Shown here in pieces: positions 1 to 26,458 of a DNA stretch of 46,755 nucleotides; positions within the stretch are counted from its first letter, which is position 1, and each line of letters begins with the position of its first letter. The stretch comes from Actinomycetes bacterium. Lineage in GTDB: Bacteria > Actinomycetota > Thermoleophilia > RBG-16-64-13. A model generated the notes under the pieces. The model searched no databases, had not been told where the DNA came from, and saw nothing but the letters and a program-made list of their open reading frames with translations. Location of the stretch: positions 1-46,755 of the forward strand of contig JAGXFV010000023.1 in assembly GCA_024637095.1 (NCBI GenBank), written 5' to 3'. The position numbers and the translations under genes were made by a program.

Positions 1-75
1 CACGGCAAGCGCCACGGGCGACCGGTTGGCGTAGTTGAGACGCGCCCGCGCCGAAGGGGGGGACAGAAAGCGTGA
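1..75 (+). CDS. 3' tail of an unknown upstream gene (partial)
   Basis: An open frame runs in from the left edge and ends in TGA at 73-75. It overlaps the GTG start of the next gene at 72-74 in a GTGA arrangement typical of translationally coupled genes. Only about 24 Arg/Gly-rich residues are visible, so no function can be given. A second frame ends in TAG at 32-34 and could be the true tail instead; the GTGA overlap is why this frame is preferred. Confidence 0.3.
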   Translation, partial: HGKRHGRPVGVVETRPRRRGGQKA

Positions 76-1677
76 CAGACAACATGCTGTATTACGGCGA
101 CAACCTAGACGTGCTGCGCCGTTACATCGAGAGCGAGAGTACCGATCTGGTCTATCTTTGACCCACCCTTCAACTCGAACGCGACCTACAACGTCCTCTT
201 CGCGGAGAAGGACGGGACTGAGGCAGCGAGCCAGATCCAGGCCTTCGAGGACACGTGGCACTGGGACGAGCAGGCGGCGCGGGAGTACGAGGAGTGCGTC
301 GAGTACGGCGGCCAAGTCTCGAGGGCGCTTCAGGCCTTCCGAACGCTGCTCGGCGAGAGCAATATGATGGCCTACCTGTCGATGATGGCGCCGCGGCTGG
401 TCGAGCTCCGACGGGTGATGAAAGAGACGGGGTCGATCTACCTGCACTGTGATCCCACGGCGAGTCATTACCTGAAACTGCTAATGGATGCGGTGTTCGG
501 GCCGGAGAATTTTCGGAACGAGATAGCGTGGCAGAGGTCGACGGCAAAAGGACATGCGTACACACGTTTTCCCTCCGCGCAGGACACCCTCTTGTTCTAC
601 ACGAAGTCCGACTCTTATAGGTGGAACGCGCAGTATCTCCCGCATCGGGAGGAATACATAAAGTCCCACTACGGCAACATCGAGCCCGGCACGGGACGTC
701 GGTATACGTTAGGCGACTGCCTCAACCCCAATCATGACCGCCCCAACCTCACCTACGAATGGCGGGGGCATACACGCGTGTGGCGGTGGACCAAAGAGAA
801 GATGCAGAAGATGGAAGACGACGGAAGGCTGGTCTACACACGCACTGGTCTCCCGCGGTATAAGAGGTATCTCGACGAAATGAAGGGTACTCCAGTGACA
901 TCCGTCTGGACCGACATTCCACCGATCAATTCCCAGGCACAAGAGCGGTTGGGCTACCCTACGCAGAAGCCGGAGGCCCTGCTTGAGCGGATTATCCAAG
1001 GGAGTAGCAGTTCCGGGGACCTAGTGCTCGACCCATTCTGTGGATGTGGGACCACGATCGCAGCGGCCGAGAAGCTCGGACGAAGATGGATCGGTATCGA
1101 CATCACTCACCTCGCGATCACCCTGATCAAGAGTCGGCTGCTCGATCAGTTCGGGGAAGAGCACATGCCAGACGTCATCGGCGAGCCCGTCTCCATTCCG
1201 GACGCCCAGTGGCTCGCCGACCATGATCCTTATCAGTTCCAGTGGTGGGCCCTCGGTCTGGTCGGAGCTCGCCCCCAGGAGCAGAAGAAGGGAGCTGACA
1301 AGGGGATCGACGGACGGCTCTACTTTCACGACGAGGCCAAGGGCAAGACGAAGCAGGTCATCATCTCGGTCAAGGCCGGCAAGCCGAAGGTGCCGCACAT
1401 GCGCGATCTTCGGGGTGTGGTCGACCGCGAAGGAGCCGAGATCGGCGTCTTGATTACAATGCAGGAGCCGACCCGAGACATGCGCAAGGAGGCGGCGAGC
1501 GCCGATTTCTACGAGTCGCCGGGATGGCACTCCAAGCACCCACGGCTTCAGATCCTCACAGTGGAGGAGCTCCTCGAGGGCAAGGGCATCGACTACCCGT
1601 CGACCCAGGGGAACGTGACATTCAAGCGCGCGCAGCGGGTTGAGCGGCGCCAGGGCGATCAGTTGGCATTGGAATAG
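72..1677 (+). pseudogene. DNA methyltransferase fused to a PD-(D/E)xK-like domain, frameshifted
   Basis: This is a site-specific DNA methyltransferase of the beta type (motif IV before motif I), expected to methylate adenine or cytosine amino groups. The frame opens at GTG 72, behind a G-rich ribosome site, and hits TGA at 159-161. Dropping one T from the TTT at 157-159 restores a continuous reading of about 534 residues. The break falls exactly before the catalytic DPPF (residues 30-33 of the repaired protein). SAM motif [10 protein letters not shown] is at about 320-328. The C-terminal part has GADKGIDG (D at about 413) and SVKAG (K at about 434), resembling a PD-(D/E)xK nuclease core, so it may be a combined modification/restriction enzyme. 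ATG 364 could start a shorter product, but it would lack DPPF and be inactive. The indel may be real decay or a sequencing error. Confidence 0.82.
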
Positions 1678-1836
1678 GGTGATAACGATGAGCATCAACT
1701 CATCGGCGAGGTGAACGCCGTGAAGCGCGCGGCAAGGTTGGCCAGCGGCTCGGCCGGAGGATGACCGTCAAGATGCCGGCAGGGCGCTGGGGGCAGGATT
1801 TGGAGGTCGGTGTCGCAAGATTGAAAGGAGCTGTAA

Positions 1837-2247
1837 ATGCAAGTGGACCTCGCGCTACTCGCTGACTACGCGGCTGTCACCCAGGAGAACAAGTTCGTGG
1901 TGGCCGGGATATTTGATGCGATCTTGTCGGGTGAGATCCCTATAACGCATCCACACATGGCCCTCGCCCTTCAGGTTCGTATCGTCGCAGGCGAGGACAC
2001 AGCACATAGGGTCAAGGTGAGCCTGGTGGACGCTGACGGGAACGACGTGATTCCGCCCCTCGAGGCGAGTGTAAGTGGGGACAGGTCGGTGGCCGATAAA
2101 GACGCCACGTTCAAACTGGTGCTGAATTTGGACAATGTGAATTTCCAGGCGGAAGGGTCTTACTCCTTTCACATCTTCCTCGACGGCCGATTCGAACATC
2201 GTGTGCCACTGCAGGTGCGAAAGGCACCGCAGTCTCGAGAGCCGTAG
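1837..2247 (+). CDS. DUF6941 family protein
   Basis: A 136-residue soluble protein begins at ATG 1837 behind a clear GGAG ribosome site. Its opening pattern (VDLALLADYA, then FVVAGIFDAI, then a THPHMALALQVR strand) matches the family annotated as DUF6941, small proteins without a known biochemical role. The rest predicts as a beta-sandwich with alternating hydrophobic strands ending in FHIFLDGRFEHRVPLQV. No signal peptide, membrane segment or catalytic motif is visible. It lies between the methyltransferase and the HicAB pair inside the presumed mobile element. The roughly 160 bases before it hold no other gene. The family call comes from memory of the N-terminal pattern and is moderately sure; a link to defence is only suggested by neighbours. 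Confidence 0.65.
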   Translation: MQVDLALLADYAAVTQENKFVVAGIFDAILSGEIPITHPHMALALQVRIVAGEDTAHRVKVSLVDADGNDVIPPLEASVSGDRSVADKDATFKLVLNLDNVNFQAEGSYSFHIFLDGRFEHRVPLQVRKAPQSREP

Positions 2248-2260
2248 AGGCGGAAAGGCG

Positions 2261-2551
2261 ATGAGTGCCGACAATCGAAGCAAGTTCCCACGCAGTGCGT
2301 GGAAGCGGCTTGAGAAGACACGAGCTTCTCGGGCCGGGTGGGACCACTCGCATTACGATAAGATGCTTCAAGGGTTCGGATTTGAGGTACGCGAAGGCAG
2401 ACACAGCAACTATATCGACGCCCAAGACCGGGACAACTTTGTCTCTGTTCCACGGGGCAAGAACCTTGGGCACTATGTGGGCGACCAGGCCATTGAAGCA
2501 ATCGAGACAGTCATTAGACGAGAGGGAGAGGATCCCAGTGGGCAACAATAA
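2261..2551 (+). CDS. hicA: HicA-like toxin (mRNA interferase fold)
   Basis: A 96-residue basic protein from ATG 2261 with ribosome site GGAAAGG. HicA toxins are small dsRBD-fold ribonucleases that cleave mRNA through one conserved histidine. Here the core reads GFGFEVREGRHSNYID, then FVSVPRGKN, which fits the HicA pattern of a glycine-rich strand, a histidine two residues after Gly (GRH), and a VPRHK-like strand. A helix (DQAIEAIETVIRR) closes the domain. The N-terminal extension of about 30 residues is longer than in minimal HicA proteins. The next gene overlaps its 3' end by 14 bases and looks like the matching antitoxin, which is the main support for this call. Local GC is lower than in the flanking chromosome, fitting a transferred segment. 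Confidence 0.65.
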   Translation: MSADNRSKFPRSAWKRLEKTRASRAGWDHSHYDKMLQGFGFEVREGRHSNYIDAQDRDNFVSVPRGKNLGHYVGDQAIEAIETVIRREGEDPSGQQ

Positions 2552-2963
2552 GGGATTGGACTACTACCGGTCGTTGCCATACGAGCGGGTCTGGAAAGAG
2601 AGCTTGCAGGGCAATGAGGTGTACTACGTTGTACACCTCGTAGACATACCTCGTCTCGCTGGGGGCGGTAAGACACGGGCGCAGGCCCTCTCCATCTTAA
2701 GGGATGCCTTTGACGACTATGTCGAGTGGCGGCTCGAGGAGAATCTCCCGATTCCGGCTCCAGGTGGTCGCGCTCAGCGAGCTCCATCCGCGCCGTCCTC
2801 TCCTTCCCAAGAGATCCGCTTCGAGCCGATTCAGTCCCAGGAAGCCGGCTGGTCCAGAGAGGACTCATACGATCAGGGGCGCGAGGTTGAGACCCACACT
2901 GGCGAGAGCGAGGAATCTAAGAGCCTGCAAGCTCGTTTCCAAGCAAGCCCCGTTCCTGCTTAG
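2538..2963 (+). CDS. hicB: HicB-like antitoxin
   Basis: A 141-residue acidic protein starting at GTG 2538 behind GGGAGAGGA, overlapping the HicA-like gene by 14 bases. Residues from about 20 to 70 show the HicB fold pattern: a strand (EVYYVVHLVDIP), a glycine-rich turn, a helix following KTRAQALSILRDAF, then the EENLPIPAP ending typical of HicB domains. HicB normally binds HicA and, through a C-terminal HTH or ribbon-helix-helix domain, represses its own operon. Here residues 72-141 are Ser/Glu/Gln-rich, look disordered and show no DNA-binding motif. The protein may therefore only neutralise the toxin, or rely on another repressor. The toxin-first order is the usual one for hicAB. Confidence 0.6.
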   Translation: MGNNKGLDYYRSLPYERVWKESLQGNEVYYVVHLVDIPRLAGGGKTRAQALSILRDAFDDYVEWRLEENLPIPAPGGRAQRAPSAPSSPSQEIRFEPIQSQEAGWSREDSYDQGREVETHTGESEESKSLQARFQASPVPA

Positions 2964-3020
2964 AGACCAGCCTATTTAATCCAACCCGTTAGCTTCAACC
3001 GTAACTCGACACCTGGTCTC
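2963..3020. repeat. 8-bp inverted repeat upstream of the recombinase
   Basis: GAGACCAG at 2963-2970 is repeated in inverted form as CTGGTCTC at 3013-3020, with 42 bases between. The left arm begins at the last base of the HicB-like gene, and the right arm lies 39 bases before the recombinase start. It could be a control site for the recombinase promoter, or chance. No recombinase binding has been shown. Confidence 0.3.
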
Positions 3021-3059
3021 GCGGCCCGTTCCCGGCGCTGCATCCCTTAGACTAGGGAC

Positions 3060-4454
3060 GTGATCGCCCTCGGCTACATCCGCGTCTCAAAAGCCCGCGA
3101 CGACATGGTCTCGCCCGAGGTCCAGAAGGACGAGATCCAGCGCTTCGCGGACCAGAAGGGCTGGACCGTGGCCGACTGGTACACGGATCTCGACATCTCA
3201 GGGCGCACTGACGAGCGGCCGGCACTCCAGGAGATGCTCGATCGAGCCGTCACCGGCGGCGCTGAGGCCGTTGTCTTCTACCGTCTCGACCGCTTCAGCC
3301 GGAACCCCGCCCACCACTACGCGATGCTCGCGCTACTCCGGAACGCCGGCGTCCTGGTCGACTCCGTCCACCAGCCCTACGAAGACTCGCCCGAGGGGGA
3401 GTTTCGCTGGGGCCTCGAGGCGGTGCTTGCCCAGTACGAGTCTCTCCGCCTGGGAGCTCGTCTCCGCGACGCACACAGGCGGCTCGCACGGCAGGGGCGT
3501 TGGAACGGGGGAACTGTCCCCTACGGCTTCCAGCGGGTGCAAGACGAGCGCGGCGTTCGCCTAGTCGCGGATCCGGAAGAGGCCAAGTGGCGTCTCTGGA
3601 TCCACGAGCAATATCACTCCGGCTGGGGAGCCGGCCGGATCGCCCGAGAGCTTAACCGTCGGGAGATCCCGACGCAGCGAGGGCGCACTTGGGAGCGGCA
3701 TACCGTCGAGGTAATCCTCTTTGGCGCAGTGCAGGTGGGAGCGCGGGAGGTCGACGGTGAGCTCGTCTTCGGAGGCAATATCGAGCCGATCGTGCCGCTT
3801 GAGATGTTCGAGCGGACTCTTCAGATGAAAGAAGCGCGGCGGCGGAAGCCTCGAGAGGGACGGCCGCCTCGGACTCCTCTCACTGGTCGGCATCTGCGCT
3901 GCGCGAACTGTGGCAACCGGCTCTATTCTCGCTGGCACCACAAGCCCAGCGACCTCTACTTCCAATGCCACGGCAGACAAAAGGCGATCTGTGACCGCGG
4001 AGTCGCCATTCAGGCGGCCCGGCTGATCCCATACGTGGAGGAACGACTCTTCGAGCGACTCCAGCAGGCCTACGCGCCAAAGGTAAGGAAGGATCCGGCG
4101 CCGGTCCCTCCGCTAAAGGAGGAGGTGCGCGACGTCGAGGAGGTGCTCGGGCGCCTTGCCGTAATGTACGCCGGCGGCGAGCTCCTCGAGGCGGAGTACC
4201 GGGCGGCGCGGCAGACGCAGCTGCGGAAGCTCGAGCGGGCTCGGGCAAAGCTCGAGAAGGCTCTGCAGCGGACGGAGGCCTTAGTCCAGGCGGATCTCCT
4301 CGAGGAGACGTGGCGGGATCTCGGCCGGATCACGAAGGCGCAGTGGGACGCGCTGTCGATCCAGGCGCAGCGCGACATTTACGATCTGGTGCTCGACCGG
4401 GTGATTGTGAGCCCTATGGGGCAGGGGCCGCGGATCCGGGTGTACTGGAAGTAG
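3060..4454 (+). CDS. Large serine recombinase / integrase
   Basis: A 464-residue site-specific recombinase starting at GTG 3060. The N-terminal resolvase domain (about 1-150) has the nucleophile in GYIRVS (Ser10) and the conserved YRLDRFSR block. A recombinase domain follows (GWGAGRIARELNRREIPTQ). A zinc ribbon comes next: CANC, then two further cysteines in FQCHGRQKAICDRG. A Glu/Arg-rich coiled coil at about 350-420 is typical of large serine integrases. Such enzymes integrate and excise phages or islands by attP x attB recombination and usually sit next to an attachment site. The reading frame is intact. TAGACT at 3048-3053 just before the start, with no clear ribosome site, suggests a leaderless or weakly translated message. 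The truncated ssb gene 52 bases downstream suggests the target. Confidence 0.93.
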   Translation: MIALGYIRVSKARDDMVSPEVQKDEIQRFADQKGWTVADWYTDLDISGRTDERPALQEMLDRAVTGGAEAVVFYRLDRFSRNPAHHYAMLALLRNAGVLVDSVHQPYEDSPEGEFRWGLEAVLAQYESLRLGARLRDAHRRLARQGRWNGGTVPYGFQRVQDERGVRLVADPEEAKWRLWIHEQYHSGWGAGRIARELNRREIPTQRGRTWERHTVEVILFGAVQVGAREVDGELVFGGNIEPIVPLEMFERTLQMKEARRRKPREGRPPRTPLTGRHLRCANCGNRLYSRWHHKPSDLYFQCHGRQKAICDRGVAIQAARLIPYVEERLFERLQQAYAPKVRKDPAPVPPLKEEVRDVEEVLGRLAVMYAGGELLEAEYRAARQTQLRKLERARAKLEKALQRTEALVQADLLEETWRDLGRITKAQWDALSIQAQRDIYDLVLDRVIVSPMGQGPRIRVYWK

Positions 4455-4506
4455 ACCGGGCCCCGCTCCCCTTTTCCTGCACGGTTCTCAGCCTCGCCAT
4501 CTTCCT

Positions 4507-4713
4507 ATGCCTGTAGGCAGAATCCGAAAGTCAGCAGAGGCGGACTTCTTCAGGATCAAGGCCTGGAACTCCCAGGCGGAGGCTGCGGCCGACAACTTGG
4601 CCAAGGGGAGGCGGATCGGCGTGGAGGGCTCGCTCCGCCAGGACACGTACGAGAAGGAGGGGGAGGAGCGGCGAAGCGTCTCGGTGGTAGCCCGGCGTCT
4701 TCAGTTTCTCTAG
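4507..4713 (+). pseudogene. ssb: 3' half of a single-stranded DNA-binding protein gene
   Basis: A 68-codon frame whose residues from about 11 onward match the second half of the SSB OB-fold: ADFFRIKAWNSQAE, LAKGRRIGVEGSLRQD, then SVVARRLQFL. Full SSB proteins begin with about 50 further residues (the first OB strands, MNSVTLIGRL type), which are missing here. The acidic C-terminal tip is missing too. The first ten codons look unrelated to SSB. The fragment starts 52 bases after the integrase stop, so the simplest reading is that insertion split the gene and the 5' half lies beyond the left edge. It could also be an old remnant or a divergent short paralogue. A hairpin follows directly. Confidence 0.65.
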
Positions 4714-4723
4714 ATGTGTATGT

Positions 4724-4749
4724 CGGCCGGGCGTTCGCGCGCCCGGCCG
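4724..4749 (+). terminator. Hairpin after the ssb fragment
   Basis: Perfect 10-bp stem, CGGCCGGGCG at 4724-4733 and CGCCCGGCCG at 4740-4749, with a 6-base loop. It lies 10 bases after the ssb fragment stop. There is no T-run on the plus strand; five A residues follow, which would give a U-run only for minus-strand transcripts. It probably belonged to the original ssb gene. Confidence 0.5.
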
Positions 4750-4770
4750 GACTAGAAAAAGGGTGCGGAT

Positions 4771-7647
4771 ATGTCTAGGCTAAGCAACCCCACCAGAGCG
4801 GATCGAGCCGCCGTGGGGAGTGAGCAAAACGCAGGGAGCAGTGAGCTCGGGGGCGCACGGGAGATGACTTCTCCTTTCCATCTAGCCATGCCCTATCATG
4901 GTCAGCTGATTACCCGCCGCCGGCTACTGGCCATGCTCCCTCCCGTGCGGGAGGGGGGTGTTGTGAACATCGTGGCCGGCCCCGGCTACGGGAAGACCGC
5001 TCTGGTGGTCGATATCCTGCGCGGGTCCGAGGTGCCGGCGGCCTACCTTCAGCTAGAGCAGGGTGATCGCAGGGCAACCGGCTTCTTGCGCTCGCTTGCA
5101 GCGGCCGTAACCCAGGCACATGCCGGACTGGGGCCGCCGCTGAGGGAAAGACTTGCGGAGTGCCGGGATACCGAACGAGAAATCCTGGCGGTTCTCACGG
5201 CGTTCCTCGAGGAGGCCAACGCTTGCTGTACCGAGCCGACCTATCTCGCCGTCGATGACGTCACCGAGGTGGAACAGAGTCCGGCCATCCTGTCGGCCCT
5301 GGAGTACCTACTGCAGGGCGTTCCTTCTGCGTGGACCGTCCTGCTAACCTCCCGGGGTCCCCTTCCCATCGATCTGGAGCCGCTCCGGAACTACGGGAGG
5401 GTCGTCGATATCGGACCGCGGCAACTCCGCCTCGCGCCGGGCGAACTGGTCGAATGGTCCCGCTTGAAGTGGGACGTTCAGCTCGGACTGCAGGAGGCGC
5501 GGGCGCTATGGAAGGTGACCGAAGGATGGCCCCTCGCCTTGACCCTCCTGGGCGGCCGACTCCGCGGTAGCCGCGGGAGACGGGAAAGGCTAAGAGAGGA
5601 GCTCACCTCCCTTCTGCAGCGAGGCGAGCGTCTGAACGATTACCTCACGGGCAATGTGTTCGACGCCCTCGACGCGGCGTCAACAGAGGTAATCCTGAGT
5701 GCCGTTTTCCTGCCCGAAGTCTCCTTTCCCAGGGAAGCGTCCTTTTTTCACGGCAAGGCCCCGCGCGCCGAAGCCATCTTGAGCAGCCTGGTGGAATCGG
5801 GATTCATGTTGGCCAGGACCGGGCAGCGGACCTATGTCCTTCACCCCCTTCTCCGCGCCTTTGCCGAAAAGATGCAGGAAGACACGACGGGACCTGACCG
5901 GACGCGTTCGGAGCGTCTTCGGGCGGCGGCGCACCTGGAGAGTGTGGGAGATCTGCATGCCGCGGTAGCCCTGTATCTGAAGGCGGAGGACGTCGCCGCC
6001 GCTATCAATCCCCTGCGTGTGCTTTCCAAGCGGGACCTCAACGCATCGTTGCATGACTCGCCGGCCGAGTGGCTGCAGCCGTTGCCCGAGGGAAGGATCA
6101 ACGATGAGCCGTGGCTCCTCATGTTGCGGGCAAAGACGCTTCAAGAGCAGGGCAAGTTCATCGAAGCCGAGAAGGTGTACCAGCGGGCAGCGAGGTTGTT
6201 TCAGAGGAACCAGGATCGCGAGGGCGTGCTGGCGGCCCTGCTGCGAAGGGCCTTCTGCCTGTACATCTCCGGCAGGTGGGACGACAGTCTCGGGGTCTTG
6301 GGCGAGGCGGATAGCGTCGTCACTGATCCAACCGAACGGGCGGAACTCTACGCGAGTCGGGGAAATGTCATGGTGGGGCAGTGCCGCTGGGACGAGGCTG
6401 TGGAGAACTTCGAGTTGGCGGTGACCACGGCTCCGCCCGAGGCCAGGCTGGGCTACGAGCTTCGCGTCTTCAACTTTAGGGCCCGCCTCTTCTTCCTGCG
6501 CGGGGAACTCCCCAAGGCCCGCGACTGGACAGAAAGGGTCATTGCCCGTGCCGCTCGTTCCTCCCGCCCCGCCTACGTAACCGCCCTCAACACGGCCGGC
6601 ACGCTCGAGTACATGATGGGGCGCTATGACGAGTCGCAGATGCATGCCGAGGCGGCGCTCGCTTTGGTGCGCTCCCGTGGTTATGCCTTCCTCGAGTCGC
6701 CGGTGCTCCTCACCCTGGCCGGCGTATCGATGGGGAAGAAGGACTACCGCGCTGCTCTGGGTCAGATCAAACGGGCGCAGGCATTGAGTGACGAATCCGG
6801 AGATATTGAAGCCGTGGTGTGGGCGATGGATATGCAGGGAGCGATCTATCGGCGTAACCGCAACCCGCAGCGCGCCCTCGAGGTGCACCGAGCCGCGCTC
6901 GAGTTGATAGAGGATAACCAGTTGTCGTCCGTTGAGCGCGTCCGTGCTCTGGTGGCCGTTGGCATCGACCTGGCTGCCCTGCAAGAAGACCGGGAAGCGG
7001 AGACGCTTCTGGGCGAGGTGGTGCAACAGGCTCGGCAGGCCAATCTGAACGCTCCCTTGGCCCAAGCATTGTTCTATCTGGGGTGGCTCGAAGCCTGCCG
7101 CGGTGACGAGGTGGGCTCGGCCAATCGGCTGACGCAGGCGCTGGAGTTGATGCGGCAGAACCGCTACCTCGATTTCCTGCACCAGGAGTCCGCGCTCGCG
7201 ACTCCGATTCTCGCTCTCTGTGCCCGTCGCGGCCTTGGCGGCGAACTGCTCGACGCCGTTGTTTTCGCTATGCCCTCGCGCTATCTGGCCTATTACGAAG
7301 AGTTGGCCGAGGGCGGAATCTATCCGACGGACGTGGCGCTTGGTCCTCCCGCACAGAGCCGGCGGGCCCTGGCGCCCGGGACCGCGCCCATGACTTCGGT
7401 TGAGGACCGCGCTCTGCTCGCCAGGTTCGAGACTCTGACCGATAGGGAGATGGAGATCCTGCGGCAGATTGCCTTCGGTCTGCCCAACAAGGTCATCGGG
7501 GCCAAGCTCTTCATCACAGAGAAGACCATCAAGACCCATGCCAACAAGATCTATCGCAAGCTAGAGGTGGGGAACCGCCTGCAGGCGGTGCTTGCTTTGC
7601 AGCGGTTCGACCGCGTCGGGGGGCGGAGAGGGCGGAAGCCCGCATAG
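4771..7647 (+). CDS. LAL-type LuxR family transcriptional regulator
   Basis: A 958-residue STAND-class regulator of the MalT/LAL type. Residues 1-40 are a variable lead. Walker A is GPGYGKTA at 70-77, and a Walker B-like strand TYLAVDDV lies near 160. A long helical middle region (about 380-800) shows repeated Ala/Leu-rich helix pairs that read as TPR units and probably sense a ligand or partner protein. The C-terminal LuxR HTH begins near residue 889 (LTDREMEILRQIAFG, then the recognition helix around TEKTIKTHANKIYRKL). Such proteins use ATP and inducer to oligomerise and activate nearby promoters. Start ATG 4771 follows a purine-rich AAAAAGGG. It is monocistronic: a hairpin precedes it and two strong hairpins follow. 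The target is unknown. Confidence 0.9.
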   Translation: MSRLSNPTRADRAAVGSEQNAGSSELGGAREMTSPFHLAMPYHGQLITRRRLLAMLPPVREGGVVNIVAGPGYGKTALVVDILRGSEVPAAYLQLEQGDRRATGFLRSLAAAVTQAHAGLGPPLRERLAECRDTEREILAVLTAFLEEANACCTEPTYLAVDDVTEVEQSPAILSALEYLLQGVPSAWTVLLTSRGPLPIDLEPLRNYGRVVDIGPRQLRLAPGELVEWSRLKWDVQLGLQEARALWKVTEGWPLALTLLGGRLRGSRGRRERLREELTSLLQRGERLNDYLTGNVFDALDAASTEVILSAVFLPEVSFPREASFFHGKAPRAEAILSSLVESGFMLARTGQRTYVLHPLLRAFAEKMQEDTTGPDRTRSERLRAAAHLESVGDLHAAVALYLKAEDVAAAINPLRVLSKRDLNASLHDSPAEWLQPLPEGRINDEPWLLMLRAKTLQEQGKFIEAEKVYQRAARLFQRNQDREGVLAALLRRAFCLYISGRWDDSLGVLGEADSVVTDPTERAELYASRGNVMVGQCRWDEAVENFELAVTTAPPEARLGYELRVFNFRARLFFLRGELPKARDWTERVIARAARSSRPAYVTALNTAGTLEYMMGRYDESQMHAEAALALVRSRGYAFLESPVLLTLAGVSMGKKDYRAALGQIKRAQALSDESGDIEAVVWAMDMQGAIYRRNRNPQRALEVHRAALELIEDNQLSSVERVRALVAVGIDLAALQEDREAETLLGEVVQQARQANLNAPLAQALFYLGWLEACRGDEVGSANRLTQALELMRQNRYLDFLHQESALATPILALCARRGLGGELLDAVVFAMPSRYLAYYEELAEGGIYPTDVALGPPAQSRRALAPGTAPMTSVEDRALLARFETLTDREMEILRQIAFGLPNKVIGAKLFITEKTIKTHANKIYRKLEVGNRLQAVLALQRFDRVGGRRGRKPA

Positions 7648-25564: not shown

Positions 25565-26458
25565 GTGAGGCTCTTCTTTGCGTTCTCAGGCGACGAAACG
25601 GTCGAATCGGGAGTGCCCAACGCGTTCACCCGGCCTTACGACGACGCCTTCGCTCAACGCGTGCTCATGCACCTGACGAATGACCCCGCCCTTTGCACCG
25701 GATGCGCAGACTTCTGCGAGCATTGCCGCGACCAATACCCCATTCAATTCGCCCAAGACATCGTGGGCCTGCTCCAACTTCCTGCCCGCCTGCCCATGTA
25801 TATAGATGAGCCCTTCGACTTCCTGCCGGATACGGTGGAGGAGCACGACCTTGCCCTGGTGGTCAACGTGCACGAGGATTTGCTGCTAAGCCTTCCCGAC
25901 CTGATCCATCGCTCGGGGGGGAGGGCCATGATAGTTCCCCAGGATGACACGGCCTGGTACACAGCCGGAGTGGTGCGGCAGGCTACCCGCCGCTGCACCG
26001 AACTGGGACTGGAGTGCGCCTTCCCCAAGCCCGCCTGCGACCTTCACGCCGGGGAAGGACAGAGGATGATCGCCGACTTTCAGGAGGAGTACCGCATCGG
26101 ACGACCGCAGATCACCGTGGAGAGCCGCGACGGCGTGATCCGTGAGGCGCGCGTGCTGCGCAGCGCGCCCTGCGGTAACACATATTATGTCGCCTACAAC
26201 CTGGCCGGGCAGAAGATCGGCCCGGATCTGAACGAGCGGGTGGTGGCCAAGTACTGGCACAGCTTTCCCTGCGTGGGCTCCATGCAGACGGACCCTGATC
26301 TGGGGGACAGCATTCTGCACAAAGGCGGTTATCTGCATTACGCGGCGGTTGATCGGGCCCTGGCGGAGGAGCGGGAGGCGCAAGAGCGGGGGCGGCAGGC
26401 AACTGGTGAAGCCGGCGGCGATCGCGGCGATGAGGACTTCGAGGACGAGGCGGCCTAG
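25565..26458 (+). CDS. DUF166 family protein
   Basis: A 297-residue protein, start GTG 25565 after a run of GGGAG repeats; the open frame extends upstream but only this start gives a normal N-terminus (RLFFAFSGDETVESG). DUF166 proteins, known mainly from methanogens and some anaerobes, were once labelled thymidylate synthase-like; their function is unproven. Seen here are a four-cysteine knot CTGCADFCEHC, later SAPCGNTYYVA, and the end block HSFPCVGSMQTD with DSILHKGGYL, all matching family landmarks. At least nine cysteines suggest metal or Fe-S binding. It is divergent from the Fe-S assembly operon across a palindromic region. A Glu/Asp/Gly-rich tail of about 30 residues closes it. Confidence 0.78.
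   Translation: MRLFFAFSGDETVESGVPNAFTRPYDDAFAQRVLMHLTNDPALCTGCADFCEHCRDQYPIQFAQDIVGLLQLPARLPMYIDEPFDFLPDTVEEHDLALVVNVHEDLLLSLPDLIHRSGGRAMIVPQDDTAWYTAGVVRQATRRCTELGLECAFPKPACDLHAGEGQRMIADFQEEYRIGRPQITVESRDGVIREARVLRSAPCGNTYYVAYNLAGQKIGPDLNERVVAKYWHSFPCVGSMQTDPDLGDSILHKGGYLHYAAVDRALAEEREAQERGRQATGEAGGDRGDEDFEDEAA

Follow-up and report, generated by a model that had tools for sequence, protein, structure and literature searches.

A large serine integrase encoded by an integrative element has very probably recombined the element's attP with a fixed attB in a short, non-housekeeping ssb gene, splitting the gene in two. The stretch of DNA analysed here (the window) is 46,755 nucleotides long and is the whole of contig C42 of a draft genome, G000, from an uncultured actinobacterial family. 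It carries the integrase gene, the right part of the element and the 3' half of the ssb gene. The 5' half is on a second contig, C19. A genome of the same genus has the empty site, and related integrases are found at the same ssb codon region in other genomes.

An integrase gene adjoins half of a short ssb gene

The integrase gene (3060-4454, plus strand) is a complete ORF with a GTG start and encodes 464 amino acids. Its product matches the Pfam Resolvase (3.7e-31), Recombinase (3.4e-11) and zinc-ribbon (9.5e-6) domains, all above cut-off, as well as a PHROG integrase family (2e-95). This is the domain composition of a large serine integrase: a Resolvase N-domain with the catalytic Ser, a Recombinase domain and a zinc ribbon. 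The catalytic Arg, Ser and Asp positions (Arg8, Ser10, Asp77, Arg78, Arg81) and four Cys residues are invariant in the integrase clade. The best-covering phage integrases on record are only about 25-28% identical to it.

The gene adjoins attR and points at it. Its stop codon lies 52 bases ahead of ATG 4507, which opens a frame (4507-4713). Of the 104 positions in the SSB model, this frame covers only 43-104 (1.9e-15). The first 10 codons of this 68-aa ORF are supplied by the element, and the rest is the 3' half of the short ssb (4537-4713, plus strand; codons 38-95). It is followed by a terminator-like hairpin (4722-4752, plus strand; RNA fold -26.2 kcal/mol, z -2.1) and a host LAL (LuxR-type ATPase/TPR) regulator gene with GerE and TPR domains (4771-7647, plus strand). 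The arrangement is as the earlier note described it, an integrase beside a split ssb and then a hairpin and host genes. The 3' half might still be a working gene, with a new start provided by the element (MPVGRIRKSAEADFF...), and in-frame ORFs with new starts are present at attR in G000, G004 and G099. We regard this as very improbable. The 3' half is missing the first 37 OB-fold residues and is degraded in G005 and G012, and no clear ribosome-binding site was seen by eye before ATG 4507.

The 5' half was recovered by searching our genome (49 contigs, 96.6% complete) with the SSB family profile. Three matches scored above cut-off: an intact gene on C4, the window fragment (model positions 42-104) and C19:32845-32952 (positions 1-36). 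The last is the 5' half of the short ssb (C19:32845-32967, outside the window), which had been predicted beyond the left edge of the window; it lies 2.3 kb from the end of C19 at 35293. The attL junction on C19 reads ...AACAGCGAAGAGGCCGACTTtccaattctgcctaca and the attR junction in the window reads tgtaggcagaatccgaaagtcagcAGAGGCGGACTTCTTCAGGATC..., and they have AGAGGC(C/G)GACTT in common, a 12-nt core. Joining the halves at the core gives one open 95-codon SSB frame, 97% identical to that of the same-genus genome G001. Comparison of the rejoined gene with that of G001 gave a dS of 0.66 and a dN of 0.026, and the short ssb is under strong purifying selection. Both halves still look constrained, suggesting that the insertion is recent relative to the split from G001, or too young for visible decay.

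A split of this kind could also be made by chimaeric contigs, since the assembly is a draft in many contigs and the window is a whole contig. Such an artefact is almost certainly not the explanation: both junctions (C19:32956 and window position 4537) are inside contigs and not at their ends, and independent assemblies show the gene split at this codon too, with both halves on one contig in G004.

The empty site and the interrupted gene

In G001 the short ssb is whole (97% identity over 95 aa) and adjoins the LAL gene, with no integrase. This is the uninterrupted relative that the earlier note had proposed to look for. In blastn alignments to G001, the C19 match stops at L008:10122 and the window match starts at 4536; within G001 they meet at 26295/26306. 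The two flanks are contiguous there apart from a 12-nt overlap, which is the core, and C19 and C42 align end to end to G001. The existence of a 5' half, and of a whole gene instead of an equally short one in an element-free relative, both favour the proposed insertion.

The earlier note was right that an ssb gene is interrupted. The gene is not the essential ssb. The housekeeping ssb is intact on C4, with 151-152 codons and an acidic DDIPF tail, between rpsF-like and rpsR-like genes (neighbours named by sequence). The interrupted gene encodes a 95-aa SSB paralogue without the acidic tail, a secondary SSB. It is intact (72-97% identity) in G001, G002, G003, G005, G007, G009, G010, G011, G012, G013, G015 and G017, and a relative at about 50% identity is found in a second family of the class. 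The EADFF stretch at the break point is invariant. The neighbours of the short ssb encode the LAL regulator, a STAS protein and OsmC. The LAL regulator stands beside the intact gene in the family genomes examined and is a conserved neighbour, in the same order in G001, G009, G011, G013 and others. An apparent split in G016 was rejected; the gene there is cut by a contig end.

The two parts of the element

The right part of the element spans window positions 1-4537 (~4.5 kb), and G001 has no alignment to the window left of 4536. Its cargo begins with a DNA methyltransferase gene with an Mrr-like C-terminal part (72-1677, plus strand; N6_N4_Mtase 8e-42, Mrr_cat 9e-8). This gene has a frameshift near 153-160, within the catalytic DPPF motif. 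The frameshift may be genuine or stem from sequencing; the related methyltransferase gene beside the G005 integrase (L046:3041-4660) is unbroken. A DUF6941 protein gene (1837-2247, plus strand; PF22091, 1e-31) and two small overlapping ORFs (2261-2963, plus strand) follow. The two ORFs resemble a HicA/HicB pair by eye only; the first had no Pfam match and neither matched NCBIfam or PADLOC.

The left part spans C19:32957-35293 (L008:10113-12449; ~2.3 kb), and G001 aligns to C19 only up to L008:10122. A Gp49/HigB-type toxin gene, an HTH gene and a weak SecB-like gene are consecutive in it (L008:10327-11644), and the row resembles a toxin-antitoxin-chaperone locus. An assembly gap of unknown size separates the left part from the right part. 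No terminase of the type seen in relatives (see below) was found in our assembly, which has its gap in the middle of the element, and this copy may therefore be a small island instead of a prophage. With the gap in the assembly, prophage, satellite and island are all candidate identities.

The attachment sites

Comparison of the junctions in the window, C19 and relatives placed attR at 4507-4565, with the attB arm bounded only approximately on its outer side. The attP half-site occupies 4507-4536, with the motif TGTAGGCAGAA at 4512-4522. It is followed by the crossover core GAGGC (4537-4541; central GA at 4537-4538) and the attB half-site in ssb. The prediction of attR at about 4455-4540 thus holds, with the element arm, the start of the core and then the host side in that order. 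The short core is identical in attL and attR, and GAGGC is common to the G000, G004 and G005 junctions. We infer that the crossover takes place at the GA of Glu codon 38, within the conserved EEADFF, with this GA as the central dinucleotide.

We rebuilt attP from attL and attR and scored its symmetry against 20,000 shuffles, taking the GA of GAGGC as its fixed centre. The G000 attP has 21 of 30 symmetric positions (0/20,000 shuffles as good), that of G004 has 17/30 (5/20,000) and that of G005 18/30 (3/20,000). With a free centre, only G000 beats the shuffles. The G004 palindrome then scores 17 against a best of 18 among 300 shuffles and is notable only with the core-fixed centre. An arm consensus, TTCTGCCTAC or a near form, is located 16-25 positions from the centre in all eight available arms. 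In the attP of the LI integrase, the zinc-domain motif is at positions 16-24 (PMC3783163). The matching position of TTCTGCCTAC provides independent support for the centre and for the enzyme class. The rebuilt attP of G000 is a strong inverted repeat centred on the core, and its outer motif stands where published serine-integrase attP sites have theirs. In attB the zinc-domain motif is expected to be shifted 5 bp towards the centre, and no clear match to this was seen by eye in the ssb attB.

A search of IMG/VR with the attR pattern returned one contig, G099, as the sole match, and no unintegrated attP with both exact arms was found in IMG/VR. At all four attR sites (window 4507-4536, L043, L046 and L114), translation of the attP arm in the ssb frame gives V-G-R, for example MPVGRIRKSAEADFF. 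This resembles the VGR near the normal SSB start, but the V-G-R of the attR arms is probably a by-product of the arm motif.

Related elements use the same site

Relatives of the integrase were found in genome contigs by an alignment-based scan; a single-sequence scan gave no match. In the family they are present in G014 (60% identity), G004 (57%), G005 (54%) and G010 (47%), with a decayed copy in G006, and the IMG/VR contig G099 carries another (50%). The same ssb codon region is broken in G004, G005, G014 and G099, each with an integrase relative. In G004 both halves are on a single contig (5' half at C21:97408, 3' half at C21:156550) with 59,058 bp between the cores, and the element flanks meet in G013, of the same genus as G004. 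In G014 about 50 bp separate an attL junction from the integrase. G099 ends in attR and the ssb 3' half. In G005, C71 carries an attL-type junction, and C138 carries an attR-type junction together with the integrase; the contigs are separate and their bin also holds intact copies, so the two junctions need not belong to a single element. In G006 an integrase pseudogene faces an ssb stump broken at codon 23, and we read this locus as a relic.

Among the family genomes with a scorable short ssb, the gene is broken in 5 of the 6 that have the integrase clade and in 0 of the 10 without the integrase, with G012 counted as intact despite a decayed extra 3' piece. The hypergeometric probability, calculated by hand and ignoring kinship, is 6/4368 = 0.0014. 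The exception counts against our explanation: G010 has the 47% relative, yet its short ssb is intact. That integrase (G010:C10, L108:11826-13268) is an open frame 13 kb from the ssb on the same contig, and an NlpC-like reading frame extends as far as the 3' end of the integrase gene. Also counting against our explanation, the two halves in our own genome are on different contigs, and the element is not read through.

The G004 element encodes a terminase (8e-105), a portal protein, head morphogenesis and protease functions, a virion structural protein and an endolysin. G099 encodes a terminase (2e-105), portal, capsid and virion structural proteins, a helicase and a Sak4-like annealing protein. 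Judged by gene content, these elements are prophages of 59 kb and at least 38 kb.

The integrases are found in two arrangements. In G000, G005 and G099 the integrase is at attR and points at the ssb 3' half. The closest pair of integrases (72%), those of G004 and G014, are instead at attL and point at the 5' half. According to work cited in PMC3783163, the orientation of integration depends on the central dinucleotide. The two arrangements would then be explained most simply by an attP that is inverted relative to int in the G004/G014 subclade.

The ssb 3' halves on G005 C138 (L046:9153-9308) and G012 C9 (L109:520-672) have an identical internal deletion and a changed end, and both genomes hold intact short ssb copies besides these degraded halves.

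Discussion

We propose that an element of a lineage including full prophages encodes the large serine integrase, which recombines the element attP with the fixed attB inside the short ssb. Integration leaves a 5' stub at attL (C19) and the 3' half at attR (window). This integrase very probably made the junction. The split most likely inactivates the short SSB, which would be lost in the lysogen while the cell lives on its housekeeping ssb.

The element may be able to excise. The site is precise within the coding frame and excision would restore the full frame; gene-restoring excision switches of this kind are described for SPbeta/spsM and skin/sigK (PMC4191935, PMC5025042). Regulated excision that restores the short SSB, with the element as a switch, seems rather improbable to us. 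No recombination directionality factor was identified, and decay of the 3' half in G005 and G012, and of the whole locus in G006, suggests loss, not a maintained switch, in those genomes.

Large serine recombinases often integrate into coding genes, and distant clusters can have one conserved target in common (PMC10083194). The integrase studied here resembles those of A118/LI, TP901-1, phiC31 and SPbeta (YokA) in the order of its resolvase, recombinase and zinc-ribbon domains, in an inverted-repeat attP with the outer motif at 16-24 from the centre, in an attB within a split coding gene and in the integrase gene adjoining the att site. It differs from them in its short ssb target, in an attB motif shift that is not evident and in its 25-28% identity. 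As with the prolyl isomerase and Mg chelatase clusters in that survey, divergent integrases use one attB in a conserved protein-coding gene; the target gene and the host are different (PMC10083194).

The view that ssb is an unusual integrase target, taken in the earlier note, is only partly right. Prophage phiB6 of Streptococcus mitis B6 disrupts ssbB, which encodes an SSB with a role in transformation (PMC2828477; PMC12637031), and competence genes are reported to be enriched among large serine recombinase targets (PMC10083194). As in the case described here, phiB6 breaks a secondary, non-housekeeping SSB gene within the coding frame, and its attP is just downstream of the integrase (PMC2828477). 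The phiB6 host belongs to another phylum, and its site is near the 5' end of ssbB with a 9-bp core (PMC2828477). In addition, its target has a known role in competence (PMC2828477). The literature search gave no direct match for ssb as a serine integrase attB, and ssb may be among the supplementary targets of PMC10083194; no report of this integrase clade, host family or short SSB was found. Neither the mechanism nor the broad target class is new. What is new is the host family, the target gene, the clade-wide attB and the presence of both integration orientations.

The phiB6 case raises the possibility that the short SSB serves DNA uptake or recombination as SsbB does, and that breaking it limits removal of the prophage by transformation. 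Prophages at competence loci (PMC12637031), the disruption of ssbB by phiB6 (PMC2828477) and the enrichment of competence genes among serine-recombinase targets (PMC10083194) are consistent with this idea, as are the conserved, tailless nature of the paralogue and the presence of ComEC in 15/18 family genomes, our own included. We consider it unlikely. The same control also gave ComEC matches in E. coli and Corynebacterium, so that ComEC is no proof of competence, the neighbours of the short ssb (LAL regulator, STAS protein, OsmC) are not competence genes, and a conserved, dispensable attB alone may explain the targeting. With similarly low confidence, we suggest that this phage clade keeps one attB in the short SSB because breaking or switching the gene benefits the phage, for instance by limiting recombination-based removal. 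If true, the conflict between prophages and transformation known from pneumococci would have a counterpart that involves another gene in a distant phylum.

Our analysis identifies a conserved short SSB that phages target repeatedly within an uncultured actinobacterial family. The phages spared the essential ssb and used a dispensable paralogue, which makes the function of the paralogue a testable question. The analysis also provides a clean attP/attB pair for an integrase clade far from the phage integrases on record, and natural examples of both integration orientations within one clade. Among 399 genomes drawn from the class, only this family gave strong integrase matches; another family gave two that were weak and distant. 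More distant integrases in another family of the class (profile E about 1e-52), those of G097 and G020 (L120, L121), adjoin a common small gene pair that resembles the replication genes of a small integrative element.
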